Program-made: the position numbers and the translations under genes | Notes under the pieces: model-generated | The model's database searches: none | What the model saw: only the letters and a program-made list of their open reading frames with translations | What the model was told of the DNA's origin: nothing | From: Eonycteris spelaea | Lineage: Eukaryota; Chordata; Mammalia; Chiroptera; Pteropodidae | Assembly (NCBI GenBank): GCA_003508835.1 | Contig: PUFA01000727.1 | Span: 1-64,000 of the forward strand | Direction: 5' to 3' | DNA length: 64,000 bases | In this document: piece after piece, positions 10,604 through 42,140 of the stretch | Position numbering within the stretch: the stretch's first letter is position 1 | Layout of the letters: each line of letters opens with the position of its first letter

Positions 10604-12867
10604 GCTTTTTTTTTAAAAAAAAAATTAATTTTAATTAATTTCAAGTACACAGTACATTGGTTAGATAACTATATAGTTAGTAAAATGATCCCCCAATTGC
10701 TCCCTCCCTCCCCTGACCCTCCACCTAGCCAATGTATTAATGCTAATTGCATTCCCTATACTGTGCTCCCCATCCCCATACCATCCATGCTACTAATTTG
10801 TACTTCTTTAACCTTTCATCCCATTCTCCCAGCCCCAAACCCCTTCCCTCTGTCTCACCAAATTGTCCACTATATTTGTAAGTCTGTTTTTGATTAGTTT
10901 GTTCTTTTTATTCCTTAAATTCCATATAAGTGAAATCATATAGTGTTTATCTTTCTCTGTCTGACTTAAATACCTTCTAGGTCATCAAAGCAATATCTTT
11001 TTCCATTCCCTTCCTTTTCATATGTAGGGTCTTGTTTTCTTATCCTTTCAGCCACTCTATCTTTTGGTTGGAGCACTTAATTCTTTTCCATTTAAGGTAC
11101 TTATTGATAGGAATGTAGTTGTTACCATTCTTTATTCCTGTTTTTGATACATGTTTTTTCTTCTTAAAGAAGTCCCTCCAACATTTCCTGTAATTCTGGC
11201 TTGGTGGATAAATTCCTTTAGTTTATTTTTGTCTGGGAAGCTCTTTATCTGTCCTTCAACTCTAAATGATAGCTTTGCTGGATAAATTATTCTTGGTTGT
11301 ATATCCTGGGTCTTCATTGTCGAATATTTTTTGCCAAGCCCTTCTGTCCTGCATAGTTTCTTTTGAGAAATCAGCTGCCAGTCTATGGGTGTTCCCTTAT
11401 AAGTAATTATTTGTTTTTCTCTTGCTGCTTTTAATATTTTTCTTTGTTTTAACCTTTGGCATTTTAATTATGATGTGTCTTGGTGTGGGCCTCTTTGGAT
11501 CCCTGATTTTTGGAATTCTCTGAGCTTCCTGGGGTTTTATGTCCATTTCCTTCACCAGGTTAGGGAAGTTTTCCATCATTATTTCTTCAAACAGCTGTTC
11601 AACATCTTGATTTTCTTCGTTACACAATCAGACAATATTTGGAGCCTTAATAGTGTCCCATATCTCCTTAAATTATTTTTTTCTTGCCATTCTGAGTGTC
11701 CTGATTGGCTTTCCTGTCCTCTAGATAGGGCATTTGATCCTCTTCTTTATTCACTTTGTTTATTCCATTTAATATACTTCTCATCTCAGATAATGTGTTC
11801 TCCATTTCAGACTGGTTCCCTTTTATAATTTCCATTTCCATTTTTATCTCTTTGTTGGAGTTCTCTACATTCTCCAAAAGTTCATTGAGCATCTTTATAA
11901 CTAGTGTTTTGAACTCTGCATCTGTTAGATTACTTGACTCCATTATATCTGGATCTCTGTTCTGTTCTCTCATATGGTTTCTGCTTCTTTGTCTTCCCAT
12001 TTTGGCTGCCTTTCCATGTCTGTTTCTATGTACTAAGCAAAGCTCCTAAGTCTCCCAGTCTTATTATTGTGGATTTGTGAAGTAGGTGTCCAGTGGCACA
12101 GTCTTGAGAAGGGTTCAGCTGTAGGCCAAATTTAGCCCAAGCCTCTACACCCTGGGGCCACCTGTTAAGATTCAGCAAGCAATCCGCAGATGCTATGCTT
12201 ATAGTTGCCTCAAAAGGCCACACCAGAAACCAATGCCAGCTGCCTCCACCAATGTGAGTCTCAGCAAGGAGCACCTGACTCGCTGAGGATACACCTGGAT
12301 ATGGCTTAGGTGGGGCCCAAGTTGGGGTAGGCAGGGTTTCAGGGAATCCTCTGGGTGGAGCGACCTTTATTATATAGTTTGATGATGTCACAGCTATGGC
12401 AGTGCTGTGTCCGGAACACTGGGAGGGGCAAGGGCTCAACAGGTAACAATGGATACCGCCAGCTCTTCTGTACTGAGCAAGTGTTGCCTCTGCTCTCACT
12501 CCGACAATGCCTCCCTATAAGTCCCTGGTGCACCCTGCACACAGCCGAATAGGCATTGGTGCTCAGAGAGAGCAGGTCCATCACCACGAAAATCTGCTCA
12601 TGGATGCAGCCCCTTTAAGAGGCGTCTGCCTCTGCTGCTGCCTCAGCTTCCATCTCATTTAGCTGCTGGGACCGGACAGCCCCATGTCCTCACTCCGTCC
12701 CACCTTCTGCCATTGCAGGGTGCTTTCTTGGATTTCTCCATAGTTGTATGGCTTGTTCATCTAGATCCCAGGCAATTTTTCCTTACTACTGCTCCTTGTT
12801 TCTGTCACAACTTTGATTTGGTTGCCAGAGGGATGAAACAGAGCCTCTATCATCTATGCCATTTTTT
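10604..12867 (-). mobile_element. Half-L1 (HAL1-like) copy 1: 5' UTR, ORF1, 3' end, no ORF2 body
   Basis: On the minus strand the order is: 5' UTR-like region (about 12,867-12,001), L1 ORF1 (12,000-11,164), a short piece of the ORF2 endonuclease start (about 11,090-11,005), then directly the ORF2 end and 3' UTR (about 10,995-10,615), and an A-tail (T-run at 10,604). Roughly the whole ORF2 is missing. The joint, GGAATGGAAAAAGATATT followed by GATGACCTAGAAGG, falls at the same place as in the plus-strand element at 31,686-34,590. It resembles HAL1 in layout but its ORF1 is of the younger local L1 type. I found no clear target duplication. Confidence 0.75.
11164..12000 (-). pseudogene. L1 ORF1 (RNA-binding chaperone), broken
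   Basis: ORF1 of the half-L1. L1 ORF1 protein binds L1 RNA as a coiled-coil trimer and is needed for retrotransposition. The start MGRQRSRNHMREQNRDP is shared with the plus-strand copy (33,029). A heptad-rich coiled coil follows (LLENVENSNKEIK), then the RNA-recognition region with RPTPRHIIIKMPK and the C-terminal domain with YPAKLSFRVEGQIKSFPD. The frame is intact for the first 110 codons only; after that the recognisable segments lie in different frames, so it cannot make full-length protein. The stop is the normal C-terminal one after GGTSL. Confidence 0.8.
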
Positions 12868-13440
12868 TCACTCTCCTCATAGTTCTTCTTAATGGCAGCA
12901 TCATATTGTTTCCTTGTATGTACTGAAATGGATTTAACCAACCTCTTATTGTGGGCCATTTCTGTTCTTTCTATAGTTCACTATTTCTCATCTTGTTACA
13001 ATTATCTTAGTACATAAATCTTGTTCTGCATCTCTGATTATTTCCTTAGGATGCCTTACTAGAGTATAGATACTGCAAGGCTCTAAATAGATGTTCCTCA
13101 GTTGCTTTTCAGAAAGGTTGTACCAATTTACATTCCTACCAGAAATAAAAGCATAGATTCCCCATTTTCCTCAGCAATAGAGAAATTATCACTTTTAAAA
13201 TCTTATGACATTGATTTCATGGCAATAGAATTTTATTATAGTATTTCCCTTATATTTCTTTGATTATACTCAAAGTTAAATACAATTTTAGGTTTGTCGA
13301 CCATTTTTATTTGTTTTGACTATATTCTTTACTTGTTTTCCATTAGTTCTAGAATATTCCTTATCAAATGTGCATGACATACTTTTACATATTGAAGATA
13401 AGCCGAATAAGCCATCGTTTATTGTACCTGTTTAAAATAT

Positions 13441-14660
13441 TTACCGTATAATTTTATATTTTTGATGTTCCAAAGTTTTAATTTCATTGCCAAATCTATT
13501 CATCTTTTCCTGCTGCCTCTAATTTCTTTTGTACTTGGAAAGTTCTTCTCCTTTCAGAGTACACTTAATAATGTTTCAACTTTTATGGTTCGGATTTTGA
13601 CAGTGAATGTTAATCTACTTATAATTAATGTTCAGGCATGCTATATAGGTTTCTTTTTAGAAGAGTTGTTTTTGTATTCAATGTATTGAATAATGTATAT
13701 CTTCTCCCACTGAATTTTTTTTTACACTTAAAACTTTTCTTTATTAAAGGTACAAAAACACTTTGCTCTCTAAAAGTTTGTCAATATTTCTAGTGACAGC
13801 ATATGGCTGCATATGCATCATTTGATCAAATCCTGATTTAAAACTTGCAACAAGTTATATTTGAAGTCTTAAATTTTTTCTCAACTTTTCATTTTGAAAA
13901 TTTTCAAAATTACAGAAAAATAAAATAATAATACAATGAATACCCATATACCCTCCACCTACATTCACCAATTGTTAATATTTTGGCATACTTTCTTTAA
14001 TGCTTTATCTATTCTCCCTTCTTCTCCCCCTCTCCTTAGTTTCATGTTTGCAGCTGCTGTGACATTTGTGTGCAAGTCCTTGTATAGATATGTGCTTTCA
14101 TTTCTCTTGGATAAATACCTAGGAGTAGAATGGTTATGAGCATGTATGTTTAACTTCTTTAAAAACTTCAAAACTATTTCCCAAAGTGGTTGTATCAGTT
14201 TACGTTTCCACCAGCAGTGCTCCAGTTTGCTCACATCCTTGCCAACACCTGCTATGATGTAATTTTATTTTACTTTAATACAATTTTATATATTGTAGTA
14301 TGATTGCCCAGTATAGTGATATTAATCATATTACAAAATTATAGTAGAATATTATTGTTTATATTCATTATATTGTGCATTAGATCTCTATGGCTTATTT
14401 ACTACTCATAAAAAAGTTTGTACTCTTAAACACCATTACTCTTATCCCTCCCTTCCTCATCCCCTGATAACCACCATTTTACTGTTTTTCCAGTTTTATA
14501 GATTCCACATGTAACTAAAATCATACAGTATGTCTTTTCCTGTCTGACTTATCTTACTTAACATACTATGCTTAAGATCCATCCATGTTGTCACAAATGG
14601 AAGGATATCTTCCTTTCTCATTGCTGAGTATATTTCATTTTGTATATGTACCACATTTCT
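13441..14660 (-). mobile_element. Old L1 3' fragments
   Basis: Minus-strand L1M-type pieces: CCCATATACCCTCCACCTACATTCACCAATTGTTAATATTTTG near 13,940, CATTTCTCTTGGATAAATACCTAGGAGTAGAATGG near 14,098 and AAGTGGTTGTATCAGTTTACGTTTCCACCAGCAGTG near 14,183. These are common L1 3' UTR and ORF2-end blocks in reverse. No intact frame. Confidence 0.6.
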
Positions 14661-14661
14661 T

Positions 14662-16100
14662 TTTACTGAGATAAATTGGTTAATAATATATAAGTTTCAG
14701 GTGTACAACATTATAATTTGATATCTGTATACACTATAGTGTGCTCACAGGAAAACTCTAGTTTCCATCCATCACCATAACATTTGACCTCCTTTACCCA
14801 TTTCACCCTCTCCCACCCCTTCCTTCTTGGTAACCACCAATCTGTTGTCTATGTCTTTGAGGATTTTTGTTTGTTTGTTTGTTTTCTTTGTTCATTTCTT
14901 TCTTTTTTGTTTTATATTCCACATGTGAGTGAAATTGTGTAGCCTTTCTCCTTTTCTGTCTGACTTATTATACTCAGCACAATATCCTCAAGATCATCCA
15001 TATTGTTGCAAATGGCAATATTTCATTCTTTTTTCATGGATAAATATATTCCTGTGTGTTTCACATTTTTTAAAATTCATCTGTTGATGAGCATTTGAGT
15101 TGTTTCCATATCTTGGCTATTGTGAATAATGCTGCTATAAACATGGGAGTGCATATATCACATCAAAAATCCTGTTTTCCTTTCCTTTAGGTATATATCC
15201 AGAAGTGGAATTCCTCAATCATATGGTAGATCTATTTTTAAGTTTTTGAGAAAAACTACATATTGTTTTCCATAGTGGTTGGAACCAATTTATATTCCCA
15301 TCAACAATGTATAAATGTTCCTTTTCGGTATCTGTTAATCTCTTGTCTTCTTGATGAATAGCCATTCTAACAGGTGTGAGGTGTTAGCTTTGATGTAATT
15401 TTAGATATTCCATTAGGTATGTATAGATATCCTGTTATGGTTTTAGTTTTCATTTCCCTAAACTATTCATGTTGAGCATCCATTCATGTGTTTATTTGCC
15501 ATCTGTTATACCTGCATTATTATGTTAAATAAAAGTGGTGAGTGTAACATTCTAGCATTTTCTTGACCTTAGAGGGAAAACATTCAATCCTTCACCTTTA
15601 AGTATAATATAAGATGTAGGTTTTTGTAGGTGCTTTTTATTGTAGGTGCTGTAGAAGATCCCTTCTACTCCTACTTTGCTGGGAGTTATTAAATGGGGGA
15701 TAGATCTTGATTTTTGTGAAAATTCTTTTTCTAAATCTATTGAAATGATCATCTGATTTCTCTTTATAATTTGTTACATTAATGGTATTGATGGTTTTAA
15801 AATGTTAAACCAACTTTACATTCCTAAGTTAAACACTACTTTGTCATGATATGTTTTCATTTTTGTACATTATTAGACTTATTTTTGTAAAAGTTGTTAA
15901 GAAATTTTGCATCTATGTTCATGTGGAATATTGATTTGTGGTTTATTTTCCTTTAAATATCCTTTTCTGGTTTTTGTATCAGAATAATGCTCAACTCTTA
16001 GAATGAGTTGAGAAGTATTACTTTCTCTCAATTTTTCTGGAAGCATTTATGTATAACCAGTATTATTTCTTTATTAAATATTTAAAATTCCCCAGTGAAG
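14662..16100 (-). mobile_element. L1 fragment: 3' UTR, then ORF2
   Basis: Begins with an L1 3' UTR in reverse (TTTACTGAGATAAATTGGTTAATAATATA..GGTGTACA; CTTGGTAACCACCAATCTGTTG), then the ORF2 end (CATATCTTGGCTATTGTGAATAATGCTGC) and, from about 15,500, the reverse-transcriptase region (CTCCTACTTTGCTGGGAGTT, CTAAATCTATTGAAATGATCAT). A gap between the two parts means an internal deletion. Many stops. Confidence 0.65.
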
Positions 16101-17940
16101 CCATTTTCATTTGCCAGGACAACCTTTGCATTTAATATGAATTTTAGAATCAATTTGTCAATTTCTAGAAAATGCCTGCTCACATTGTGATTGGGATCAC
16201 CTTGGAATCTATAGAACAATTTGGAGAGAATTGCTCAGATAAACTCTCATTTTTTCTGAAAGTATTTTGCCTTCCTTTTAAAACGTTTCCCAATTAAACC
16301 TTTTATTTTTATGTAATAAATTCAAATGCAGTTGTAAAAGCAATACAGAGAAATCTCATGTATCCTTTACATACTTCCACCAATGCAACATCTTGAAAAA
16401 CTAGAGTACTGTATCACAACAAGGTATTGACATTGATAAAAATCAAGATACAGAACACTTTCATTATTACAAGTATTCTTCACTTGCCCTTTTGTAATCA
16501 CATCCCTTTCTCTTTCTCCCATCCTCCATACTACCCTTTAACTCCTGGAAACCTGTTTATTTCCATTTTTTTTTCATTTCAAGGATGTTATATAAATATA
16601 ATAATATGTAACCTTTTGGAGATTGCCTTTTCACACAGCATAATTTCTGTAGACTTACTCAAGTTGTTTCATTATATATAGTTTATTTTAAAATTTTTGA
16701 ATTGTATTTTACTGCACTGAGGTGTTACAGTTTAACCATTAACCCACTGAAGGACATCTGGGTTGTTTCCAGTTTGGGACTATTGTGAATAAAACTGCTA
16801 TAAATTTCCATATTTAGGTTTTTGTATGAACATATGTTTTTCATTTTTTTCTAGAATAAAATGCCCAGGCATGAAATTGCTGGGTTCTATAGTAGTTACA
16901 TGTTTAGTTTTTAAGAAACTGCTAAGCTCTTTTGCAGAGTGACTGTACCATTTTAGAAACCCACCAGCAATGTATGAGTGATCCAGCTTCCCACATCTAG
17001 CCAATATTTGTTGTTGTTGCTACTTTGTTTAGTCACTCTGATAGATGTATAGTAATATCGCATTGTAACTTCATTTGCATTTCCCCAATGGCTAAATGAT
17101 GTTCAATGTCTTTTATGTATTTATGTTCTATCTGTATATTCCCTTTGGTGAAATCTCTCTCCATGTCTTTTGTCCATTTTAATGGTTGTTTGTTTACTAT
17201 TGTTTTGAGACTTTTTTTTGTATATTCTAGATCCTAGTCCTTTATTAGATACATGGTTTGCAAAGATTTTCTCTTGGTCTGTAGCTTGTCTTCTCATTCT
17301 CTTAACGAGGTCTTTTTCAGAGTAAATGTTTAAATTTGATGAAGTTCAGTTTATCATATTTTTTTTCTTTTATGGATCATGCTTTTGATGTCAAGTCTAA
17401 GAACTCTTCACTTACCCCTTATACTGAATATTTTCTCCTGGATGTTTTTCTAACTATTTTATGGCTTTACATTTTACATTTAAGTCCATGATCTGTTTCA
17501 AGGTGATATTTGTATAAAGTGTGAGGTTTAAGTCAAGTTTTGTTTTCTTTGCCTTTGGATGTTCAATTACTTCAGCACCATTTATTGAACAGCAATTCTT
17601 CCTTCATTGAATTGCTTTAGCATCTTTGTCAAAGATCAGCTGGTCACATTTGTGTAGGTGTATTTCTGGGTTTTCCTCTCCACCAATGACAAAAAGTCTT
17701 GATAACTGTAGCTATACAATAAAATTTTTAAATCAGATAAACTCTTTCCACCTTATTCTTCTTTTGCAAAATTGCTATAGCTATTTCCCGTTCCTTTCCT
17801 TTTCCATATAGATTTTAGAATAATCTTGTCTATATATCCAAATTTTTTGCTGAAATTTTGATAGAAATTGCATTAAATCTGTATATCACTTTGGGAGAAT
17901 TCATACCTTTAGTGTATTAAAGTTTCCAGTCCATGGTCAA
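16101..17940 (-). mobile_element. Old L1 ORF2 and 3' end mosaic
   Basis: Several minus-strand L1 pieces: 3' UTR type CACTTGCCCTTTTGTAATCACATCCC near 16,480; ORF2-end type GGTTGTTTCCAGTTTGGGACTATTGTGAATAAAACTGC near 16,763; and ORF2 with TTTATTAGATACATGGTTTGCAAAGATTTTCTC near 17,240. All are decayed and none is coding. Confidence 0.6.
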
Positions 17941-17948
17941 CTGATAAA

Positions 17949-19995
17949 TTTTTACTGAGGTGGAATTCACTTAACATAAAATTGACAATTTTAAAATGTA
18001 AAATTCAGTGGCATTTAGTACATGCACAGTGTTATACAACCAATACCTCCACCTAGTTACAAAACATCTAAATCACCCCAAAAGAAAACCTAATATCCAT
18101 TAAGCAATCACTCTCCATTCTTCCCTCCCTTAAGTCTGCTCTGCTTTCTGCCTCTATAGATTTACTTATTCTGTATATTTCACATAAATTAAATCATTAC
18201 CATATGTGACCTTTTGTATCTACCTTCTTTCACTTAGCCTTTTTTTTAAGGTTTATCCATGTTGTAGCATATATCAGTTACTTCATTACGTTTATGGGTG
18301 AATAATATTGCACTGTATGTTTATATCATCATTTGTTTATTCATTCATCTGTTAATGAACATTTGGGTTGTTTCCATTATTTGGCTATTGTGAATAATGT
18401 TGTTATGAACATTTGTGTATAAGTATTTGTTTGAGTACTGTTCTGTCTTCATTTTTAAAAGATATTTTCACTGGGTATAGAATTCTATTGTCTGTTTTAC
18501 TATTTCAGTACTTTAAAGATGATGGTCCACTATTTTCTTGCTTGCATTATTTTTTCTGATACAATCTGCCAAAATCTTTATTTTTGTTTCTCTGTGGGTA
18601 ACATGTCATATTTCTATGTCTGCTTTTAATATTTTCACTCTATATCTAGTTTTGAGCTGTATATGAATGCTCCTTAGTGTAGTTTTCTTCAAATTTCTTG
18701 TGCTTAAGTTTTTTGAGATTATTACATCCATATGTTTCTAGTTTCATAAATTTGAAAAATTTTAGTCCATTATTTCTCTTTCATCTCCCTCTACTACTAT
18801 AATTACATATTAGAGTGCACTAAGTTGCTCCATAGCTCACTGAAATCTCATTTATTCCCCTCCCCCAAATGGGGATAATCTCATTTTTGATAATTCCAAT
18901 TGCTATCTATAATTTTCATTTTGGATAATTTCTATTGCTATGTCTTCAAATTCACTAATCTTTTCTTCTGCAAAATCTAATCTTCCATTAATCTCATTTA
19001 TTATAGTTTTCATCTCTCCTCACACATTGTAGTTTTCAGCAATAGAAATCTGAGTTGAGTCTTTTTTAATCTTCCACATCTCTCCTTAACTATTTGATCA
19101 TATGAAGAATAGTTATAATAGCTTTTTGTCATTATCTGCTAATTATAACATCTGTGTTAGTCTGGATCAGTTTCTGTTGATTTCCTCATTAGGAACTAAA
19201 GTTTACTTTTTTTTTTTTTTTTTGCATGCCTGGTAACTTTTTATTGGATTTAAGACCTTGTAAATTTTACATATTTGGGTGCTAAATATTTATGCATTTT
19301 TAGAAATATACTTATGTGTTTTTTTTTTCTGGACATAGCAAAATTATTTGGTAACAGCTTGACCCGTTTAGGTCTTGCCTTTAAAATTTGTTAGATAGGA
19401 TTAAAACCATGTTTAACCTAGAGTTAATTATTTCTCATTACTGAGGTAAGAACTTTCTGGGTACAATACTCCATGAATTATGAGACTTTGCAGTTAAGTT
19501 GAGGCTTAGCACTATTACCAGTTTCGTATGAACACTAGGTACTGTTCCCTCTAATCCTTTCAGATGATTCTTTCCTTAATCTTAGGTAGTTTCTTCAAAT
19601 ACATGCATTGCTCAGTACTTAGCTGAATACTCAAGGGGCTTTCTGAAATTTTCAAATTTCTATCTCTGTACAGTTCTCTCAAGTAATCTTCCTTGTAAAC
19701 TCTAGATCCCTTGGTATTTCTTCAATCTCAGCTCCATCTTCTCTATTCAGGAAGCCCATCATATTCTACTTGGTTTCCCTCTTCCTGTGCCACAGACCAG
19801 AAACTCTCTTAAGGTAGCAATCTGGGGCAATAGTTGGGTTCACCACATTTTTTTCTGTCTCTCATGGATCACTCTCCTTCACTGTCTGAAATCTAGTGTC
19901 TTGTAAAGCATTGTTTCATATATTTTGCCTGTTTTTAAGTTGTTTCAGGCAGGAAAGTAAACCTGGACCCTGTTACTACATCTTAGCCAAAAGCC
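17949..19995 (-). mobile_element. HAL1 element, nearly full length
   Basis: HAL1 ('half-L1') is an ancient L1 derivative with ORF1 but no ORF2. On the minus strand: 5' region (about 19,995-19,170, starting near the GGCTAAGATG-type motif), ORF1-related sequence (about 19,170-18,450, including the reverse of CTTTAAAGTACTGAAATAG and of CCAGTGAAAATATCTTT), then directly an L1 3' end (18,440-17,949; reverse of ACTGAGGTGGAATTCACTTAAC). Order and spacing fit HAL1. It is strongly diverged, and the 5' border and the homopolymer T-run at 19,207-19,223 are approximate. Confidence 0.6.
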
Positions 19996-19999
19996 AAAC

Positions 20000-20640
20000 T
20001 TCTAACAGTATTACTCCAAATGAAAGCAGGATCTCAAAGAGATATCTGCACTCCCATGTTCATTGCAGCACTGTTCACAATAGCTAAGATATGGATAAAA
20101 CCTAAGTGTCTATCAGTAAATCAATGGATAAAGATATACATATATACAATGGGATATTATTCAGCCATGAGAAAAAAAAAGGAAATCCTGCCACTTATGA
20201 CAATATGAATGAAACTTGAAGGCACTATGCTAAGTGAAATAAGTCAAACAGAGAAAGACAAATACTGTCTGATCTCACTTATATGTGAAATTTTAAAAAC
20301 CAAACTCATAGAAACAGAGTATAGCAGTGATTACCAGCGGCTGGGGGTGAGGTAAATGGGGAGATGTTGGTCAAAGAGTACAAACTTCCAGTTATAGATA
20401 AATATAAGTTCTGGGGATCTAATGTACAGTATGGTGTTATAGTTAACAATATTATATTTTATACTTGAAAATTGAGATCTTAAATATTCTCACCACAAAA
20501 AAAAAAAAAAAAGAAATGGTTATGTGACATAATGGAGGTGCCAGCTAATGCTACAGAGGTAATCATTTTGCAATATATAAGTGTATTGAATAAATTTACA
20601 CAATGTCATATGTCAATTATATCTCAATAAAGCTGGAAAA
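20000..20640 (+). mobile_element. L1 3' end fragment
   Basis: Plus-strand end of ORF2 (GTTCATTGCAGCACTGTTCACAATAGC, CAATGGGATATTATTCAGCCATGA, CTATGCTAAGTGAAATAAGTCA) followed by the 3' UTR (GATTACCAGCGGCTGGGGG). An internal A-run lies at about 20,495-20,512. It abuts the minus-strand HAL1 back to back. No intact frame. Confidence 0.75.
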
Positions 20641-21340
20641 AAATATTATGCCAATAATATTATTGCTGACTTGGGTGTCTTCATCTTTTGTGGTTCCTTC
20701 TTATCACTTCCTGGGAGTTCCTAGTGTTCTGTAGCTTAAGGCTACTCAAAATTGCATGGACATCAATTTAAAATACTGTTAAAAATTAAAACAGATTATA
20801 TTTTTAAATAACTTGCATAATTTTATGTGTATTGGACAAGCCCTCCATACCATTTCCAAAATCTTCTTGGCCTCTCCTCTTACTCCAGTCACTGCTGGAG
20901 AGACCAGTTGCATTTAGACTTTGACTAACTTTGCACAGGTGCAATTGGACAGTGTCTCTCCTTGGCTGGTGACACATACATTTCACTTCCTTCCCTAAGG
21001 CTACTCTGATCCTATCAGTAGGAATCCCCTCTACATTCACACATAGACAACCAGAAAGTATGAGGGCATTTAACACACATGGGGCCATTTTTGACCAATA
21101 AGGAATTGAAGACAATAGAGAATTTATTTCCCCTAAATAAAAAATGAGACTCATTTCTTAACACTTTACAGAAGGTCCCAGTTGCATTGAGCATCAGTCT
21201 TCTACAATAGTGACCAACCTCTGTGCTTGGATTCCCTCTTTTCATCATTTGTGTTCCACTTCCTGGAATCACACTTCTAAATAAACCACCTGCATACAAG
21301 CCTTAATCTAAGGATCTGCTCTTAGGAGAAGACAGGCTAA
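20641..21340 (+). mobile_element. Possible ancient LTR relic
   Basis: The part from about 20,850 to 21,335 ends with ACTTCCTGGAATCACACTTCTAAATAAACCACCTGCATACAAGCC, an LTR-like arrangement with a polyadenylation signal (AATAAA, near 21,280) and U5-like end. I cannot place the family or the start. 20,641-20,800 holds nothing I recognise. Confidence 0.35.
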
Positions 21341-22746: not shown

Positions 22747-22899
22747 TCTCATTTCCACCATTCAGAGTAGAAAAATTCATTAATGAGTTGGAATTATGTA
22801 GAGTACTCAGAAGGGTTTTGCCTCAGTATTGTGGGAAAATTAGGCATACAGGCTGCTCTTGTTTTGCCTAACAAAGATTAAAAGTATGACCTGAAAGGC

Positions 22900-24235
22900 T
22901 AAAAATTGTTTCAAGTACCTTAATCATACAATGGAACAAAGCTCAAGAATGTTTATAAGAACATAAATATATTCAGCACTTACAAGGTGAAAGTTGAAAT
23001 GTCTAGCATCAAACAAAATGTTAGCAAGCAGGAAACTACTATGTATGATGGGGAGAGAATCAATCAATCTAAACTGACATAGAAATTTCGTAGGCGATAG
23101 AATTAGTAGATGAGGACAGAAAAAAAACATTATTATCATCATATTCCTTAAGTACAGGAAGTTAGAGGGAAAATTTAACGTGTTAAGTAGAGGTATGGAA
23201 GATATAAAAAGACCTAGATCTAACATCATCTACAATATATAAGATGAGAAATATAATTAATAGGATTAATGATAGATTAGATGTTGTAAAGAAATTATTA
23301 ACAAACATGAAGACTTTTCAAAAGGCAGTATCCAAAATTAACCGCAAAGAGGAAAAAGTGAAAAAAAGATTAACACAGCATCAGTGAGCTGTGGGACAAT
23401 TCTAAAAAAGAGAGTCACAAATGGAGAAAAGAGAGAGAGATGGGAACCAAAAAAAACTTGAGAACAAAACACAGTCAATAATTTCTCAAATGTTATGGAA
23501 ACTATATGTCTGCAGTGCTGAAAATCTCAACAAACCCTAAGCACAATAAATGAGCTTTAAGGATAATCATGAAAATATTTCTTAAAACCAGTGATAAATA
23601 GGAAAATGTTGAATTAGACATAGAAAAAAGACTTATTATGTACAAAGGAACAAAAATAAAGTTGACAGACATCTTATATGAAACAATGTAAGCCAAAAGT
23701 GAGGAGAGTATTGTATTTAAAGTACATAGAGAAAAACTTTCAACTTAGGTATTTATACCCTGAGAAAATGTCTTTGCCTTCAAAAACAAAGGTAAAATAA
23801 AGACATTTTGTTACATTAAAAAACAGCAAAATAATTAATCATCAGTTGACCTATACTATAAGAAGCGAAGTACCAATACACAGTATAACATAGATCAATC
23901 TCGAAAACATTATGCTAAATGAAAGAAGGCAAACACAAAAGGTCATATATTGTTTAATTCCATTTATATGAAATATTTAGAATAGGTACAATCATATAAA
24001 CAGAAAGGAACTGGTGGTTGCCAGGGACAAGGTCAGGGGGTAATTGAGAGTGATTGCTTAATGAGTACAGTGTTTTGTTTTGGGGTGATATAATGTTTTG
24101 GAACTATATACAGGTGGTGGTTAACAACATTGTGAATGTACTGTGTCACTGAATTTTATACTTAAAAATGGTTAATTTCATGTTATATGAATTTTTATCT
24201 TAATAAAAATATTAATATATTAATAAAATTAACAT
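22900..24235 (+). mobile_element. HAL1 element (ORF1 part plus 3' end)
   Basis: The plus strand carries decayed HAL1 ORF1: AAGTAGAGGTATGGAAGATATAAAAAGACC near 23,186, CATCAGTGAGCTGTGGGACAA near 23,380, AAACCAGTGATAAATAGGAAAA near 23,586 and CAAAGGTAAAATAAAGACATTTTG near 23,787. Within 60 bp this passes into an L1 3' end (AAACATTATGCTAAATGAAAGAAGGC; GGTGGTTGCCAGGGACAAGG; TTAAAAATGGTTAATTTCATGTTA) with no ORF2 between them, as in HAL1. It is non-coding now. Confidence 0.7.
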
Positions 24236-24462
24236 TTTTAAATAATTGTATGATCTTTTCAATATACACAGTGAAAGCATTTAACATCTCATATCCATTC
24301 CTGATAAAATCTATTGGCAAAGTTGGAACAGAAGGGAGTTTCCTTTGCCTGCTTTTAATCATGAAAAATGGAATGCTTTCCTCCTGTGTTCAGCAACAAG
24401 AAAGGGATGTCCACTCTTACCACTTTTATTCAACATTGTACTGGAAGCTGTAGCCAATGCAG

Positions 24463-24509
24463 CAAGACAAGACAAGACAAGACAAGACAAGACAAGACAA
24501 GACAAGACA
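24463..24509 (+). repeat. (AAGAC)n pentanucleotide microsatellite
   Basis: About nine tandem AAGAC units. They sit at the A-rich place in L1 ORF2 where an AATAAGACAAGAAAAAG-type sequence is normal, so the array probably grew from L1 sequence. Confidence 0.9.
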
Positions 24510-26144
24510 TCAAGGCTTGAAACGAAGAAGTAAAACTTTATTTATTCATATACTAATATCATCTATGTGGAAAATCTGATAATCTATGTGGATTATGTAT
24601 ATATAAAATCTGATGGTATCTACAAAAACCCACAAGACTAATAAATGAGTTTATTAAGTTTGAAGGATACAAGATCAATGTATATAAATCAGTAGTATTT
24701 CTATCTTCTAGCAACAATCAGAAACTAAAATTTAAAAAAAAATACCATTTACATTAGCATTGACAAGTATGAAATACTTAGGAAAAATCTGTCAAATATA
24801 TGCAATACCTCTACACTAAAAAATATAAAGTTTTGCTGATATAAATAAAAGAAGCCTTAAATTAAATGGAATGATACACTGTGTTCCTGAGTCAGAAGAC
24901 TGAAATTATTAAGATGTCAATTCTTCTCAAACTAATTTGTAGATTAAGCACAATCCCAATAAAAAAAACCTAGTAAGTTTTTATAATTGATAAGTTTATT
25001 CAAAATTCATATGAACATGCAAAAGACCTAGAATAGCCAAAGCTACTATGAAAAAAAGTAAAGTTAGAAAATTAACACTACTGACTCCAAAGACTTATTA
25101 TAAAGCTACAGTAATTAAGACAGTGTGGTATTGGTGTAGAGATAGACATATAAATTAATGGAACAGAATAGAAAGTTCAGAAATAGATCTACTCATATAT
25201 CAACACTAACTTTTAGCAAAAATGCGAAGGCAATTCAGTGGAGAAATGATAGTCTTTTCAATCAACAGTACTATAACAACTGTATATCCACATGCAAAAA
25301 AAAATCTTGCATCTATGCCTCACACTATATCTAAAAATTAACTTAAAATGAATAATTGACATTAATGAAAAACCTAAAATTATAAAAGTTCTAGAAGAAA
25401 CCCTTTCTAAACCTGGTTTGTTAGATATAACACCAACAGCACAATCCATAAAAGTAAATTGATAAAATAGACAATCAGAATTTAAAACTTTTGCTCTCCA
25501 AAAGACCCAGCTAAGAGAATAAAAATACCACCACAGTTTGGGAGAAAATATTTTAGAAATCATATATCAGATAAAGGACTTGTATCTAGAACATACAAAA
25601 ACTTTCAAACTCAATATTAAGAAGATAAACCATAATGAGATACTACTACACATCTATTAAAATGGTTAAAGTTAAAAAGATTGATATACCAAGTATTGGC
25701 AAAAATGCAGAGTAACTTAGACTTCATACAATACTGGAAAGGAAGTAAAATGGTACAACTTCTTTGGAAAATACCTCGGCAGTTACTTAAAAAAGTTAAA
25801 CATATACCAACCATAAGATACAGCCCTTCTACTCCTAGGCATTTATCTAAGAAAAAATGAAAGCATATATCCACATAAAAACTTATACCAGCTTTATTTG
25901 TAATCAGTAACAACTGGAAACAACTCAAATGTCCATCAATATGTGATTAATTATTAAACCGTAGTATAGGTATTTACTATGGAACACTATTCAGCAATAA
26001 AATGGAATGCAATATTGGTACATGCAATACTATGGATGAAAAAGTGCATGGTGTATATAATTCCACTTATTAAAATTCTAGAGAATGCTAACTTTTCTGT
26101 AGTGACAGAAAGTAGCTCAGTGGTTGCCTGAGTTTGGGGGATGG

Positions 26145-27437
26145 TGAAAGACAGCAGAATATACCACTACAAAATATGCCTATTTGGCATAAGGATTATT
26201 TTGAGCCGATTATTTTTGATGCAGGATGGGGTGAATCCCCCCACCTCGAGTGTGCACTTAAGCCCTATACCTACCAAGAGAGGGTCGTTGGCTCCCCATA
26301 GAAAAGAATTCAAGAGTGAACCGAAGTTAAAGACAAAGGAAAGTGTAATCACACACGAACTTCATTTCTTTAATATAGTTATTTTCCTCTGATTCAAACT
26401 GGTTTTGCCCAGGTAATGGCATTGTTACTTTTGCTTTTTCCCCCTTATCCTCTGCAAGCTTGCCCCTTTAATCATCAACCCTCAGGACATAAGATTGAAG
26501 GAGCCACAGGTCTATAATCATGAGGACAATAGGTTTCAGTTGGACTTTAGACTAAGGATAAAATTTTGGCCTTAGATGTGTTTCAGCCCCAGACCCATCT
26601 AGGCAGAACAACTCCCCCAGCCACGGGACCAGACATGATGGTGCCATGGGTGATTCCAGAACTGAACACAATGATCAATCACCTCATCCCCCTCCAATAG
26701 TCCAATCAGTAGCACTCACAATTCCATCTCCCTTAGTTTTCATGACAACTGATTTTTCCCTATAGAATCTGTACTCCCAAGAAACCCAGGGATCCAGGCC
26801 TTTGAGTGATAGCCCACCTGTGTCTCTGGGACTTTCAGTTCTAATAAACTTTCTTTGCTGCAAAACCTGTACATATCTTTCCTTTGGCTGAGATGTGCAC
26901 AGGAAGATGGACCTCTTTTATTATCAGGATAACAAAAGTTAATCAGAGAAAAAATAACACTCCTTAGAGTGTGGTCTTCTTTCAGAGTGTTTGAGAGATT
27001 GGGTTTATATCTGTTCTCAGTTTCTATAAAAATTTACTTTTTTATAAGGAAATCTCCATTTGTAAAGGTGTCTCCCTCTCTGTACTAAGAAAAGAAGAAT
27101 GACTAAATCATAAGAAACTCTTATCAGCGGAGAAGACACTGAGAAATCTACATAAGAAACCTTACCCTATTTTACTGTGCTTTTCCTGGTCACCTTCCAT
27201 TACTGCTCCCCATTCATACACTTTTCTTTCCTTTGTCTTTAGCTAAAGACAGTGTTTAAGGTGATGCTTTAGGTCACCTTTTAGAGTTACTCATTTTTCC
27301 TGGATATCTCCCATGCATAAATGAGTTATACATGTTAATAAACTTGTTTCTTTTTCTTGTTAATCTGTCTTTTATTACAAGAGGTCTCAGTCAAGAACTC
27401 AGAAGGGTAGAGGGAGGATTATTTTTCCTCCTCTACA
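26145..27437 (+). mobile_element. LTR, family Y, copy B, interrupted by LTR Z
   Basis: Starts TGAAAGACAG and shares CAAAATATGCCTATTTGGCATAAGG with copy A; ends CAGAAGGGTAGAGGGAGGATTATTTTTCCTCCTCTACA. It carries ATGTTAATAAACTTG (polyadenylation signal) near 27,330. 26,218-26,929 is foreign to the family and is annotated separately. Flanked by ATGG direct repeats, so a solo LTR inserted in L1. Confidence 0.75.
26218..26929 (+). mobile_element. LTR, family Z, nested in LTR Y copy B
   Basis: Foreign block inside LTR Y: it begins near TGATGCAGGATGGGG and ends near CTTTTATTATCA. It has a U3-like GC-richer first part and, near the end, GACTTTCAGTTCTAATAAACTTTCTTTGCTGC, a polyadenylation signal followed by a T-rich U5-like stretch, typical of class I ERV LTRs. 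Borders are judged only from where similarity to LTR Y copy A stops and resumes. Confidence 0.5.
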
Positions 27438-27519
27438 ATGGGTATGTGTAGAAGCAAGGGGGATTTCAAAGGAGCATGAGAAAATTTTAGAGAGAAGAAG
27501 TTCATTATCTTGATTGGGA

Positions 27520-28080
27520 TGATATCTTTTCCAGAAAGGAAAAATTTTTTCTGTACCTTTCTAGGTTCTTCTGGCTGGTCTAAGAATCAAATTGATATAA
27601 GTCAGATTAACAAGATAAAAATAAACAAAAGTTTAATAACATGTATACCTCCAGTATACATGGAAAAGACCCAGGAAAACTGAGTCACTTTATGAAATGG
27701 TGCAAGCCATCACCTGAAATATCATCTTTTAGCTAAAGATGAAAGATGTTTGGTATGGGGAGTCAGCTATGGAAGGCTATCAGGAAAAGCCCAGTAATCA
27801 AGGGTAACATTGTTAGGCAGATTGAAGTCATTGCTTTATTTATTGGTTTGAATTTCTAGAAATTGAGTCATCCTTCTCTTCCTGGTACAGAGGGGCAGAC
27901 ACCCTTACAAATGGAGATTCCCTTTATAAATGTAAATGTCTCTTACAGAAGAGGAACTTCTACTTTGTTTTCAGAGCTTATTTTATATCTGCTTTTTAAA
28001 AAACATAACCACCTTAAAATAAACAATATGCCAAAAAGGCATATTTTGGGGCTGCAAAATTATGCTCACCTAGAGTCCCA
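27520..28080 (-). mobile_element. LTR, family Y, copy C (inverted)
   Basis: Reverse-strand copy: TTTCTAGGTTCTTCTGGCTGGTCTAAGAATC near the left end, AACATGTATACCTCC, TCATCCTTCTCTTCCTGGTACAGAGGGGCAGACACC, and ATATGCCAAAAAGGCATATTTTGGGGCTGCAAAATTATGCTC..GAGTCCCA at the right end. It lies only 82 bp from plus-strand copy B, forming an inverted LTR pair. LTR X copy 2 starts 2 bp after it. Confidence 0.75.
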
Positions 28081-28081
28081 C

Positions 28082-28712
28082 TGTTAGGTAGTTAAGCAGG
28101 AATGAGCAACAGGAGCAAAGGACCAGCTCTGTAATCATAGAAACCTCTCTTAAAGACCTTCCTTAAGGACCTCCCGGAACACCTCCCTTTTATGGTTACA
28201 AATTATCCCAAATCCTAAGGCACAAAGCCATAAAAGCTGCTGGCTAAATCAGCCACAAGTGCATACACAGAAAGTGCTACCCCAACCTGCCCATAACCTC
28301 AGCCTCATTATACCATCATTATAATAGCATGCCTATGCCCTGAAGTTCATGAATCTAATTATAACAGACTGAATTATGGATAAGCACATGCACAGGAGGC
28401 AAACAGCTACAGAGCAGCCAACTGTCAGTCAAGGTGATCTCACATGCGGATCATCTAGGATCTCTCATCATGGCCCAAATACAAACAGACCTTTTTTGCA
28501 CAGTTACAGCTCTCTTCACTGAAAACCCGCTCCTCCCTTGAAGCATACTCTGTCTTTTATCTTTTAGCTTTTCACCTCCAAAATTCCACAGGGCTGCAGC
28601 TTTCCTTAGCATGGCCCATCTCCTAAAAATGTACTTTCAATAAATCTTACCTTTTATAAACCTTGCTGACCTGTAATTCCTTACTGCATCAGAAGGGAAG
28701 AACTGCAGACCT
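28082..28712 (+). mobile_element. LTR, family X, copy 2
   Basis: Starts TGTTAGGTAGTTAAGCAGG. Shares CATTATACCATCATTATAAT and CTGAATTATGG with the LTR at the window start. A TTTCAATAAATCTTACC polyadenylation signal lies near 28,637, followed by CTTGCTGACCTGTAATTCC. The end is approximate. I see no primer-binding site or retroviral frame after it. Confidence 0.6.
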
Positions 28713-29319
28713 CTGCCATGCTGCGGGGGCAACACCAGATTCACATCACTCAAGCAGTAGCACCATCTTTGAAAGTCCCAAAGAAGTTTCATAGTCTAGA
28801 GGCTAAGTCAGTGGTCTGTTCCATCTTACTGAACCAGTCTCTTAGTCCTGAAAATAGGTCAGTTCAGTTAAATAGTCTTGTCTCTCACTTCAGGAGTCAG
28901 TCTTGTAGTTAGGCTCCTAAGTTTGGCCTACATGGTACAAGCAATCAGGTATTTAATAAGAAGCATTTCTATGGGAACAAAAGAAAAACAAAGGTTAACG
29001 TCTATAAACTCAGTGTGAGTCAGGAGAGCAGCCAGTCATGATAAGATTTTAAATGTAGGGGTCAAAATGTCTTTTGCAGTTTGAAATTTCTCTGATGATG
29101 TCATCAGTTGTGCAAGTAAACTTTCTGAGTTTAAGTAAACAGGTGTGAAGATTCTCTAACCAAGGGATGTTGTAAGGACTTATCTGAAGTTTAAATTAAG
29201 TTGCCCAGCTTCAATTCGCAAGGCTTTAGGAAAAGGACAATTTTATTTCTCAATGATTCCAAGTCAAAAGTATGGGAGAAAAATAGATACATAAGTTTGG
29301 ATATTTGTAGCCCAATATA
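28713..29319. other. No gene recognised
   Basis: Unassigned; could be internal sequence of the element belonging to LTR X, but no retroviral motif is visible. Confidence 0.35.
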
Positions 29320-29327
29320 AAAGAAAA

Positions 29328-29371
<44 letters not shown>

Positions 29372-29413
29372 AAAGAAAGAAAGAAAGAAAGAGGGAGGGG
29401 GGAGGGAGGGAGG

Positions 29414-29446
<33 letters not shown>

Positions 29447-29466
29447 AGAGAGAGAGAGAGAGAGAG

Positions 29467-29541
<75 letters not shown>

Positions 29542-29556
29542 AAGAAAGAAAGAAAA
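29320..29556 (+). repeat. Polypurine microsatellite (GAAA)n / (GGGA)n / (GA)n
   Basis: About 235 bp in which the plus strand is almost entirely purine: GAAA units, then GGGAGG units, a long GA run with interruptions, then GAAA again. Long homopurine runs with mirror symmetry can adopt triplex (H-DNA) form. It likely began as an A-rich tail of a retroelement. Confidence 0.9.
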
Positions 29557-29682
29557 ATTTAGGATCTGGTTATAAACAAATCTAAAAGGCACTGGAGTAA
29601 AAAAGGAGAGACTTTATTCAGTTAACAGCTTGCATAACAGGGAGATGCAGCCTACAGCAAAATCCAAAAGTATGCTTGTTAT

Positions 29683-30233
29683 TGGTACAAGGTCCTTGTG
29701 CCCAATGCTTGGAAAGGCCAAAATTCAAAACACCAGAGTTTGTAGAAAGGAAAGATTTATTGATAGAGAAGGCACTAACTGAGAAGAAACCTCAAATCCA
29801 TCTTCCCAAAGTACAGAGTTCAGGTTTCTTTTATGCCAAGGGTAGGGTAATGGGAGGGGCAAGAGGTGATTGGGCCGGTGGCAGACATCTGGGCACAAGC
29901 AGGGGTCCAAGGAAGATTGTACTAGCTGATGTGAGTCTGGTCACAAGGTTCTTACAAATCTTTTATAAGCAGTACATATTTCCCTTATTTCCATTGGAGA
30001 GGCACTTTCTGACAAAGGAATGTTTTTGTAAAACTCAAGCCATAAGCAGAATTCCTCTAATGATTAGCATGTCTATATGCAAGACTCAGCAAGAGATTTT
30101 AGTGTGAAGACCATAAGAACAAAGTAGGCTTGAACAAGATAGAGGCAGAAAGGCTATTTCAATATTACATGTTCTGCTGAGACAAAGGCAAGGTCACCTT
30201 TTACAGAGAATTTTCCCACCCATGGGCCCCATT
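29683..30233 (-). mobile_element. LTR, family W (class I ERV type)
   Basis: Read in reverse: TGGGGCCCATGGG start, CCTTGTGACCAGACTCACATC, a TATA-type GGCATAAAAGAAACC, a polyadenylation signal TATCAATAAATCTTTCC and an end CAAGCATTGGGCACAAGGACCTTGTACCA. This layout is that of a class I ERV LTR. 29,557-29,682 to its left holds another possible LTR end (reverse of GAATAAAGTCTCTCC). Not named. Confidence 0.55.
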
Positions 30234-31674
30234 CTGGTCCGTTTCACCTAAGGTTTCCAAATTGTACAGTTGTTTGTTCAAAGCAAGCAGTTCTGATTGG
30301 TTAATATAGATGCAAATTAGAATAGAATTTGTATAGTTCTGATTGGATGGGTAGGTTTCAGTACATTAGTTGAAGGATGAAACCAGGGCTTCCCTGAAGT
30401 GATTGACATAGACAGAGTGATCAAGCAGGACATAGCATTGGAAGTCAAGAGTTTAGTCTGAGGTTCTTCCCAGTATACAGAGTACATGAGAAGCCCCTTT
30501 CAGCAGATGGCCACTAGGTTATTATTTTAAAAATTTGGCCCCTTGGTTGACAACGGGGTGTCCATCTCAGCAAATAAATTCCTTATTGGGGTTCACATCA
30601 AGTGAATCTTTCTTTTGGGGGTCTACACAATCTAGTTTATAGGTAGAAAACATGACTAAAAGTAACTAGAATCTGATATCCACTCAAGTTTTATAGTTTC
30701 TACTCTAACATGATTTTTTATCTCTACGATCATCCCCATTTTTACCAAAAATAATAAAACTAATTCATTTGTAAAATAAGTCAAGTCTTAGTAAACTTGG
30801 TCTAATTATTTTCATAAGTGTAGCAAAAAGAGCTATTAACCATATAGGGTCTTTTAATCTGCTTTGTTATAATTTTTTATAAGGAATCTCAGATTTAATT
30901 TTTAAATTGTCTCATGAGACCAGGAAGCTAAGTCAAGGACTTGCCATCATGAAACTTGCCTGTAATATTTAAATATTTGGGTGAATTCCTCTCCTCTGGA
31001 GGTCCTCAAAATATCCTGAGGTTTCTGTATGTGCCAGGAAGTAACTTTCTTTATTCACCTGGTAAGGCTGCCAGAAACCCTGTAAGCAAGGCACCATGCT
31101 AGTTTTTCCAAAGGGCTTTACTGGCCCCATAAAATCAATCTTAGTTCCTTAAAATTGTCTGGTAATATCAAATTCTATGCATGTTCTCAAACATGACATT
31201 CCAGTCAAAGCCTTGGTAATATAACCTATGTTTTCAATTATGTCCTGAAAGAAGGAGAACAGCTTCTAATTGAATTTATAAAAATAACTATATTTCCAGA
31301 AAAATGAGAATACTCACAAAGAGTATGAGGTAGGAAGATCAGGTAGGAAGAACAAGTGACCAGGGAAGACTGTGCCACTGGGCCCCACAGGAACCTACTA
31401 AATGATTGCTTCATTTCTGTTCAGATATACTTATGTTCAGATGCAAAATATAAAGATATACTTTACCAAATTATTGACAGCTTAAAAGAAAGTAACAAAA
31501 AATTCCTTAAATCTGGAAAAATAAAACACCAGCAATTTTTCAAACAAAAAAGTCATAAAAATATAACCATTATCCTCAGCTCATTTCTTCCTATGTTAAT
31601 TGTTGTTCTACTTAAATCCAGTTTTTCCATTAGTTCTGGAAATTCTTATCTAGTTCAGTGTTATGATCTTAAAA
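30234..31674. other. No gene; possible ERV internal remnant
   Basis: AT-rich, no open frame. It could be decayed internal sequence of the LTR W provirus on the minus strand. 31,355-31,395 (GACCAGGGAAGACTGTGCCACTGGGCCCCA) duplicates a piece of L1 5' UTR found again at 32,921-32,960. Confidence 0.35.
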
Positions 31675-31685
31675 TTATCAGAAAC
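31675..31685 (+). repeat. Target-site duplication, left copy
   Basis: TTATCAGAAAC here is repeated exactly at 34,592-34,602, just beyond the A-tail of the half-L1. It marks the insertion limits. Confidence 0.85.
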
Positions 31686-33028
31686 TTGGACCAGTCAAGA
31701 TGGCAAAGAAGTTAGACTGTGCTTGCCTCCTCTTGTGCCCATAGTAAAATTATAACGAAGCTACAAAGCAACCATTATATGCAGTTGCCTGAGGTCTAGC
31801 TGAACAGCAGTCCTACAACCAGGGCCACATAGAAGAGGCCACCTCAACATGGGTAGGTTGGGCAGAGATGCAAAACGGCCCAGTCCCACAATGGCATGTG
31901 ATGGTCAAGAATCTGCAGAGTTATCCATATTGAGAACCCCAGCCCAGGTTTCTAGTGCTGGAAAGAGAAGTCTCCATAACCTCTGACTGTAAAAAACTAG
32001 CAGAGATTGAGGATGAATGAGATGGAGGGCTCCAGGAGTTGCAGACATTCTTTTTAAAGGGCCTGTGCCCAGACTCACTCTGATCTCCAGCACTGGGGCA
32101 GCTACTCGAGGAGTGCCAAAGACAAACAGAGAGACAAAAAGTTGTCAGGCTTCAGGGTGATGGCTGGATGGGCAGCTTTCTCCCAGAGAGAAGTGCTCGC
32201 AGTATCCATTGTTCCTTGGTTGAGCCTTCCCCATTTCCAGTGTGCCACCACAGCTGTTTCCATCAACCTGGAAAACACAGGTCACTCTGCCCTGGTGATT
32301 CCCTGTGACTCAGCCTCTCCCAACTGGTGGGCCCACCCAACCTGCCTCTAGTGGTTTATCCCATACAGATGGCCTGTCTTGGCTCTTGCTGTGGACTTTC
32401 CAAAATCTTTCAAAAACTCACAAAACCCAAAGAAGCAGCATCTGACCTCAGAATGCCCCATACCTCTTGCTAAGCAGCCCCAAGCCCCATACTAGTGGCA
32501 GCTGGCCTTGGTTCCTGGCTTGGCCTCTCGAAGTACTATAAGTCCAGCACGGGGGTCAGCTATCTTGGTGACTATTACCAGGTGGCCCCAGAAGTACACA
32601 GGCTGTGGCTGAAACTGGCCTGCAGCTGGACCTCTCTCAGGAAGCTCCTGGGCCGCCATACCTGGTGGCCTGCTTTGACCTGGGCCAGAGTTGGAGCACC
32701 ACCCAGGGATGCATCTGAGGAGGACACACTCGAAGGATAGACTGGGAGAGAACCAGAGCCCTGCTAAAATGAATTGGCACTTCGCCAGCCAGTTCTCACA
32801 ACCAATCAGCCTAAGGGTCGAACCCTCCTATCGAGCGCAAACAACAACCAAGGCTCAACTGCAACAGGAGGGCACACACAACCCACACAAGGGATACACC
32901 TTGAGCACCCTGCTCAAGTGACCAGGGAAGACTGTGCCACTGGGCCCCATAGGACACCTACTATATTAAGGCTGGGAGATATAGCATCTGTATCTAATAC
33001 ATAGAAATAGACCAAGGGAGAAGCCAAA

Positions 33029-33967
33029 ATGGGGAGACAAAGAAGCATGTCTCACATGAAAGAACAGAACAAAGCTCCAGAAAATGAATTCAACAAGCAA
33101 TCTACCAGATGCAGAGTTCAAAACACTGCTTATAAGGATGCTCAATGAACTTAGGGGAAGAGTAGATGAACTCAGTGAGAACTTTAACAAAGAGATAGAA
33201 AACATAAAAATGGATAGAAAACAAAAAATGGAGAACATAAAAGGGAACCAGTCAGAGATGAACAATATAATATCTGAAATGAAAGTACATTAGAGAGATC
33301 AACAGATTGAATGAAACAGAAGATCGAATCAGTGATTTAGAGGATGGGGTAGCAGAGGACACCCAATCAGAACAGCAAAAAGGAGAAATAATGAAAAAAA
33401 TAAAATAAAACAATTTAAAAAGCCTTTGGGACAATGTCAAGCATAACAACATTCGCATCATAGGGTACCAAAAAAGAAGAGAGAGGAAGGAATTGAAAAC
33501 CTATTTGAAAAAATAATGACAGAAAACTTTCCTAACCTGGTGAAGGAAATAGACATACAACCCCAGGAAGCTCAGAGAGTCTCAAGGAGGAACCCAAAGA
33601 GGTCCATACTACCTCCTCCTCCTCCTCCTCCTCCTCCTCATCATCATCAAGACACATCATCATTAAAATGCCAAAATTAAATACAAAGAAAGAATCAAAG
33701 CAGCAAGGTAAAAGCATTAGTTACTTACAAAGAAGCTCCTATAAGACTGTCAGCTGATTTCTCAACAGCAACTTTGTAGGACAGAAGGGCCAGGAACAAA
33801 ATATTCAAAGTAATGACAAGCAAGACTTACAACCAAGATTGCTCTACCCAGCAAAGCTCTCATTTAGGATAGAAGGACAGACAAAAAGCTTTCCAGACAA
33901 GAAAAAGCTAAAAGAGGTCATCACCACCAAGCCAGTATTACAGGAGATGTTGGAGGGACTCCTTTAA
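33029..33967 (+). pseudogene. L1 ORF1 (RNA-binding chaperone), broken
   Basis: Start ATGGGGAGACAAAGAAGC gives MGRQRSMSHMKEQNKAPE, matching the start in copy 1. A frame change near codon 25 moves the coiled coil (NLPDAEFKTLLIRMLNEL, then SENFNKEIENIK) into another frame. The RNA-recognition part (FPNLVKEIDIQPQEAQ) and C-terminal domain (LSFRIEGQTKSFPDKKKLKE) are recognisable; the end at GGLL-TAA is the normal one. A CTC triplet expansion at 33,607-33,638 lies just before HIIIKMPK. Not functional. Confidence 0.8.
33607..33652 (+). repeat. (CTC)n then (ATC)n triplet run inside L1 ORF1
   Basis: Ten or so CTC units then several ATC units where the ORF1 of copy 1 simply reads RPTPRHII. It is a local expansion after insertion. 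Confidence 0.9.
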
Positions 33968-34591
33968 AAGTCTAAATTAAATGGCAATAACTACATATCT
34001 ATCAATGAGTACTTTAATTAAAAAGAATTAAATGCTCCAATCAAAAGATAAGGTCGCTGAATGGATAAGAAAATGAGACCCTTATATAGGCTGCCTACAA
34101 GAGACTCACTTACAGATTAAAAGATACACACAGATGGAAAGAAAAGGGATGGAAAAAGATATTTCATGATGGACCTAGAGGGTTTTGTGCTGAGTGCAAT
34201 AAGTCAGATAGAGGAAGACAAATGCCATATGATTTTCACAGATATGTGGAACCAAGAACAAAATAAACCAAAAAGAACTGAAACAAACTCATAGATACAG
34301 AGAACATTTCAAAGGTTACTAGATTGGAGGGTGTCACAGAGGTCAGTGAAAAAAGGGGAAGGGATTAGAAGTACAAATTGGTAGTTAGGAAACAGTCATA
34401 GAAACATAAAGTATATCATGGGGAATATACTCAATAAAAAAAATGCATGGTGTCAGATGGGTGCTGGATTTTATTGAGGTGATCACTTCATAAATTATAT
34501 AGATGTCAGATCACTATGTTGTACACCTGAACCAATATAATATTGTATGTCAACTGTAATTGAAAAATAAAAAATATTATTCAAAAAAAAG

Positions 34592-42138: not shown

Positions 42139-42140
42139 TT

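Follow-up and report, generated by a model that had tools for sequence, protein, structure and literature searches.

Can an L1 retrotransposon that has lost nearly all of its second open reading frame (ORF2) go on multiplying as a family of its own? The question is raised by a 64,000-nucleotide stretch of the genome of the fruit bat Eonycteris spelaea (assembly GCA_003508835.1, contig PUFA01000727.1, positions 1 to 64,000; this whole stretch is called the window here), which contains two L1-derived elements on opposite strands, e1 (about 10,604–12,867, minus) and e2 (31,686–34,591, plus). Each comprises a 5′ untranslated region (UTR), ORF1, a fragment of the ORF2 endonuclease, the final ORF2 codons and a 3′ UTR, and in each the endonuclease stub jumps from GATATT to these final codons. 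A preliminary description of the window had ascribed this to a deleted L1 that became a non-autonomous family. We followed both elements through the genome and conclude that e1 and e2 probably belong to one long-lived half-L1 lineage of HAL1-like design (probability about 0.78), with one ORF2 deletion and, later, the 3′ end of another L1.

Structure of the two window elements

Re-reading of the window bore out the extents of both elements and the 11-base target duplication reported for e2, TTATCAGAAAC, which is exact and lies at 31,675–31,685 on the left and at 34,592–34,602 on the right (plus strand). No clear target duplication was visible by eye in the flanks of e1 (12,867–10,604, minus). 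The deletion joint of e2 (34,158–34,175, plus) consists of GATATT (34,158–34,163), TCATG and, from 34,169, ATGGACC; that of e1 (10,980–10,997, minus) of GATATT (10,997–10,992), GCTTT and then GATGACC (10,986). The ORF2 end, 3′ UTR and A tail of e2 occupy 34,169–34,591 (plus). In e1, ORF2 end, 3′ UTR and an A-rich tail occupy 10,604–10,986 (minus), with a 3′ end of the type found in a full-type L1 nested in locus L043.

ORF1 is broken in both elements, i.e., at 33,029–33,967 in e2 (plus, placed by eye) and at 11,164–12,000 in e1 (minus, start and stop set by eye on the family frame). Moreover, alignment locates a loss of about 290 bases in the 5′ UTR of e1 at 12,105–12,106 (minus), a loss common to part of the family of e2. 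Identity between the two elements is only about 70% (1,195 aligned bases), so that they are not two copies of one young element. Rather, e1 is a member of a young and e2 of an old half-L1 family, as described below.

Two side observations concern e2. A CCT repeat (33,612–33,639) lies within a 38-base stretch of its ORF1 that is missing from the other 28 aligned rows. Upstream of the element, a 50–60 base piece of L1 5′ UTR (31,353–31,410) is about 90% like 32,915–32,973 of e2; no adjoining L1 3′ end was seen.

Genomic copies of the deleted form

We searched the genome (1.96 Gb in 3,802 contigs) with queries spanning the two joints, and each returned many matches, as the preliminary description had anticipated. 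The 141-base query from e2 found at least 39 other matches at 87–92% identity, the 181-base query from e1 at least 39 others at 95–98%. These counts are lower bounds, as we scored the best 40 of 2,304 first-look candidates for the e2 joint and the best 40 of 2,226 for the e1 joint, self included; first-look candidates are not equal to copies.

The joint was then read in 30 loci per family, the window copy being counted in each. In the old family, 18 of 30 loci carry exactly TCATGATGG, 11 are variants by one to three changes and one was unparsed. In the young family, 29 of 30 read GCTT(T)GATG, i.e., GCTTTGATGG in 21 and close variants in 8, and again one was unparsed. Accordingly, 58 of the 60 loci show the ORF2 deletion, in place of the endonuclease and reverse transcriptase that make an L1 autonomous. 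The family-specific joints are nearly equal, TCATG|ATGG in the old and GCTTT|GATGG in the young family, and two of the old variants start with G, like the young joint. The claim of an identical joint in both elements thus holds for the jump from GATATT to the ORF2 end, and fails for the few bases by which the families differ. Save for these bases, joints did not differ against the parent L1.

We extended 20 of the 29 old loci fetched besides e2 and 10 of the 29 young loci fetched besides e1. Thirteen of the 20 old copies reach to within 61 bases of the 5′ end of e2, the other seven being shorter or interrupted; all 10 young copies start within about 40 bases of each other. Among the 13 old copies inspected, target duplications were clear by eye in seven (L037, L038, L040, L042, L043, L044 and L046, some with one mismatch), possible in L033 and L045 and unclear in the other four. 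In the young family they were clear in four of 10 (L058, with 16 bases, L061, L063 and L067) and not in the other six. Since copies are flanked by target duplications of their own, it was the deleted form itself that was copied. Being multi-copy, A-tailed and flanked by target-site duplications, the half-L1s are of the HAL1 kind in this respect. The step from a deleted L1 to a multi-copy, non-autonomous family is supported by the many joint copies, by the own duplications of part of them and, as described below, by an old-family majority ORF1 that is open and by a young family nested in the old one with a second deletion in common.

In the interval that separates ORF1 from the endonuclease stub, L042 and L044 carry insertions of short interspersed elements (SINEs), which we take to be tRNA-Val-like; their A-rich sites lie close together but are not the same. 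We considered these inserts as one shared acquisition and rejected it; sites and target duplications differ by eye, which indicates separate SINE insertions.

Relationship of the two families

The preliminary description had spoken of one family. We found two, of different age, and the evidence that nevertheless joins them comes from a tree and from a second deletion. The tree, from ORF1 to the joint, compares seven full L1s with 13 of the 21 old and 8 of the 27 young rows; eight old rows that were truncated or had inserts or gaps were left out. All half-L1s lie on one side of a branch from the seven full L1s (support 99/95), and the young family is nested within the old, beside the old copy L048 (93/96). 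A first version of this tree was in agreement, with supports of 97 and 87.

The second deletion is the gap of about 290 bases in the 5′ UTR. Its edges coincide in the eight young rows and the old copies L042, L043, L045 and L048; the gap of L035 is close to this, that of L044 is wider, and nine old copies retain the block. A pattern search that tolerated six errors found the short 5′ UTR form in 24 of 27 young copies, and both full L1s examined contain the block. We therefore place the young family inside the old one, on the ground of two nested derived deletions, that of ORF2 and that of the 5′ UTR.

The family majorities diverge least in the endonuclease stub (13%) and the two ORF1 halves (18% and 14%), and more in the 5′ UTR (24%), beyond the joint (23%) and in the 3′ UTR (34%); both ends have therefore diverged faster than the middle. 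Candidate parents were sought among other L1s of this genome. L081–L083, which were retrieved through their reverse transcriptase, resemble the more active megabat L1 family in the long intergenic region described for it (PMC4072516); their ORF1 is only about 61–68% like that of the half-L1s, and we rejected them as parents. L094–L096 and the L1 beside L074 align with the half-L1s at 66–75% over longer stretches. A different ORF2-deleted L1 was seen in L050 (3396–3795), where the endonuclease start (CTCCAATTGAAAGG) is joined to the ORF2 end (CAATTGGATAAAG).

Age of the two families

Old copies diverge from their majority by 6–18% depending on the window of alignment, with a mean of 11.8% (27 windows). 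The young family is about 7% diverged, as judged from L097, which came to light through an adjacent L1 and had not been selected by its joint: its differences from the young majority are 6–7% in ORF1 and over the joint and 9% in the 3′ UTR, i.e., 74 of 1,027 sites overall. L060 and L074, which were picked, likewise differ by 5–7% in ORF1. In the joint-picked young copies (L051–L080), divergence varies strongly along the length: base changes amount to about 1.5% in the core, from the second half of ORF1 to the joint, and to 6–13% in UTR windows, with deletion events, many of one base, at 0.7–1.4% in every window. This core looks homogenised, by assembly or by conversion; the 80 loci contain no N bases, which speaks against simple unfilled gaps behind its uniformity. 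We considered young-family activity after L1 extinction, as the very low divergence at the joint would imply, and rejected it in view of L097 and the UTRs.

For megabat L1s, the two latest waves are reported at 92–93.5% and 87.5–89% identity; the younger is termed megabat-specific, L1 family 2C of the wave matching the old half-L1s is stated not to be bat-specific, and L1 extinction in fruit bats is put at about 24 million years ago (all PMC4072516). The divergences of both half-L1 families are close to these two waves, a comparison of divergence that gives no dates.

Coding capacity of ORF1

The majority ORF1 of the old family is open over 318 codons, 303 of them from the first methionine. 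In a Pfam scan of three open ORF1 pieces, L033 had Transposase_22 (1.2e-15) and a dsRBD-like domain above the cut-off, L043 had domains below it and L032 had none. The half-L1s are hence L1-derived, with ORF1 present and the ORF2 reverse transcriptase gone, which is the HAL1 kind of make-up. The indels that set the young majority of an 8-copy alignment apart from the old one mostly have lengths divisible by three, and there is no in-register stop; the young majority of a 27-copy alignment is broken at two A-runs of copy-variable length. Between the majorities, seven of 12 indels are in frame (p = 0.003), or eight of 11 when two neighbours are merged (p = 0.0002), compared with 29 of 152 events in 17 decayed old copies.

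Alternative explanations

Several results weigh against one lineage with a maintained ORF1. Two base changes and one base insertion separate the old joint from the young one. The approximately unbiased (AU) test did not reject the old copies as a clade without the young (p = 0.25), the young family and all full L1s as a clade (p = 0.249) or the young family placed with its four closest full L1s (p = 0.124). The comparison covered only seven full L1s, none of which is known as a young-type L1 and some of which are long or of odd composition. A separate tree covered the sequence downstream of the joint, with 14 of the 21 old rows, eight young rows, two window L1s, the deleted L1 next to L050 and the full-type L1 nested in L043. 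It unites the young family with the L1 in L043 (100/100) and sets the old family apart from them (99/98), so that either an exchange or a separate deletion is needed. Our reading, suggested by the single full-type L1 in this tree, is that the 3′ end was exchanged. For ORF1, dN/dS (nonsynonymous to synonymous change) between the family majorities is 0.47 (0.33–0.73), compared with a median of 0.57 (range 0.33–1.05) in 16 decayed old copies; as it is not clearly below this control, it gives no evidence of selection. Finally, none of the 27 young and 20 old copies measured has an intact ORF1, the young stretches and some old ones being partial.

The joint, the AU values of 0.12 to 0.25 and the 3′ grouping would all be accommodated if two separate deletions had struck nearly the same bases of ORF2 in different L1 lineages, aided by short repeats (CATG upstream, CATGG downstream), and each product had then been copied. 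That such deletions recur is indicated by the deleted L1 beside L050, the joint of which is different. Both breakpoints would, however, have to recur within a few bases, and neither the nesting of the young in the old family in the ORF1 tree nor the shared edges of the 290-base gap, which is absent from the two full L1s seen, would be expected. We regard two deletions as unlikely. The preliminary description had taken the same view, which the nesting and the shared gap strengthen and which the AU tests, in rejecting none of the main alternatives, leave short of decisive. Far less probable still is an origin of the joint by splicing of full-length L1 RNA, with repeated copying of the spliced product. 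Splicing of L1 RNAs is known, and the joint is nearly constant within each family. The upstream edge of the deletion was identified as GATATTTCATGCAAATGG in L1s with a continuing endonuclease (exact in L096 and L097, with two changes each in L094 and L095) and the downstream edge as CAACATGGATGGA in the window L1 at 61 kb. No GT is present at the upstream edge in the L1s of this genome that were seen, and an AG just before the downstream edge occurs in the L1 nested in L043 and not in the window L1. The splice-like signals raised earlier as possible flanks of the missing part were thus not borne out, and ordinary GT..AG splicing is therefore not indicated. Moreover, the nested history of other deletions in the young copies fits copying of the deleted form. 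A further explanation, that the elements simply represent the ancient eutherian HAL1 family of repeat libraries, with no younger origin, would account for the same architecture and agrees with family 2C being stated not to be bat-specific (PMC4072516). Against it stand the divergences of the two families (about 12% and 7%), which come near those of the last two fruit-bat L1 waves, the younger of them termed megabat-specific (PMC4072516), and the position of the half-L1s in the tree, adjoining the short-intergenic L1s of this genome. We hold it to be improbable, somewhat more so than two deletions.

Other repeats

Elsewhere in the window, a repeat occurs at 1,679–1,909, 41,837–42,141 and 47,463–47,686 with 83–90% identity; its copy at 41.8–42.1 kb bears TATA-like and AATAAA signals, ends in CA and looks like a long terminal repeat (LTR). 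Two 5S rRNA-derived insertions lie at 60,120–60,237 and 61,869–61,985, the first with a visible target duplication; 5S-derived MEG SINEs are described as the only known active megabat SINEs (PMC7547651). In the genome, most of the 150 listed RVT_1 places share a score of 131.1 bits, many with a frame of 359–362 codons, and look like a young LTR element. Three reverse transcriptase matches with L1-like flanks (C379, C165 and C10) all carry stops. Two patterns tried on viral contigs gave no match.

Discussion

Our data support the view that a deleted L1 became a lasting parasite family of intact L1s and was copied in at least two periods. In the lineage that we propose, an L1 of the short-intergenic kind would have lost nearly all of ORF2, from the endonuclease (after GATATTTCATG) up to the last codons (ATGGACC), so that 5′ UTR, ORF1 and 3′ end remained. 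Copied many times with target duplications, this form would have given rise to the old family, which includes e2. One of its branches presumably lost about 290 further bases of the 5′ UTR, and from this branch the young family, including e1, would descend, with additional small deletions and a 3′ end of the type found in a different, full-type L1, which may have been gained by template exchange with another L1. The half-L1 RNA was probably made from the L1 promoter, its own ORF1 protein may have been produced from it, and, as the loss of ORF2 and the L1-like insertions suggest, it would have been reverse transcribed in trans by the ORF2 protein of intact L1s. The lineage may have risen with the two L1 waves and stopped when the L1s of fruit bats died.

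It is already in print that half-L1s arose repeatedly (PMC5753468), and the bat lineage is a new example of a known mammalian kind, not a new kind. With HAL1 families it shares the origin from L1, the kept ORF1, the lost ORF2 enzyme, the poly(A) tail and the target duplications (PMC5753468, PMC5322556), as well as dependence on the enzyme of a full-length long interspersed element (LINE), which is stated for HAL1 (PMC5322556) and would hold by analogy for the bat half-L1s. The bat lineage may differ from HAL1 families in that it keeps an endonuclease stub and the last ORF2 codons, comprises two families of different age with stepwise shortening, and has in the later family a 3′ end of another L1 type. 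The young HAL1s tabulated for guinea pig and marmoset are likewise later, lineage-specific half-L1 families, in other hosts, and the megabat row of the same young-family table has LTR entries only (PMC3183009). The megabat L1 lineages of Yang et al. 2014 (PMC4072516) resemble the half-L1s in their two-wave divergence and, unlike them, carry ORF2; the term HAL1 is absent from the main text of that paper. Among the papers listed in our searches for HAL1 and half-L1s, no title or abstract opening names a half-L1 in fruit bats; an earlier description is possible.

Whether a single lineage lived alongside its helpers for tens of millions of years, with the ORF1 frame kept, parts shed stepwise and the 3′ end switched as if to track the helper, until L1 extinction ended it, is a more tentative matter, to which we give slightly less than even odds. 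If one lineage did follow two L1 waves and then switch its 3′ end, it would offer a natural experiment on the parts that a parasite of L1 cannot do without (ORF1, promoter, 3′ end) and on whether the choice of the L1 enzyme that copies the parasite depends on the 3′ end. Fruit bats with dead L1s would, moreover, show the fate of such a parasite once its helper is gone.

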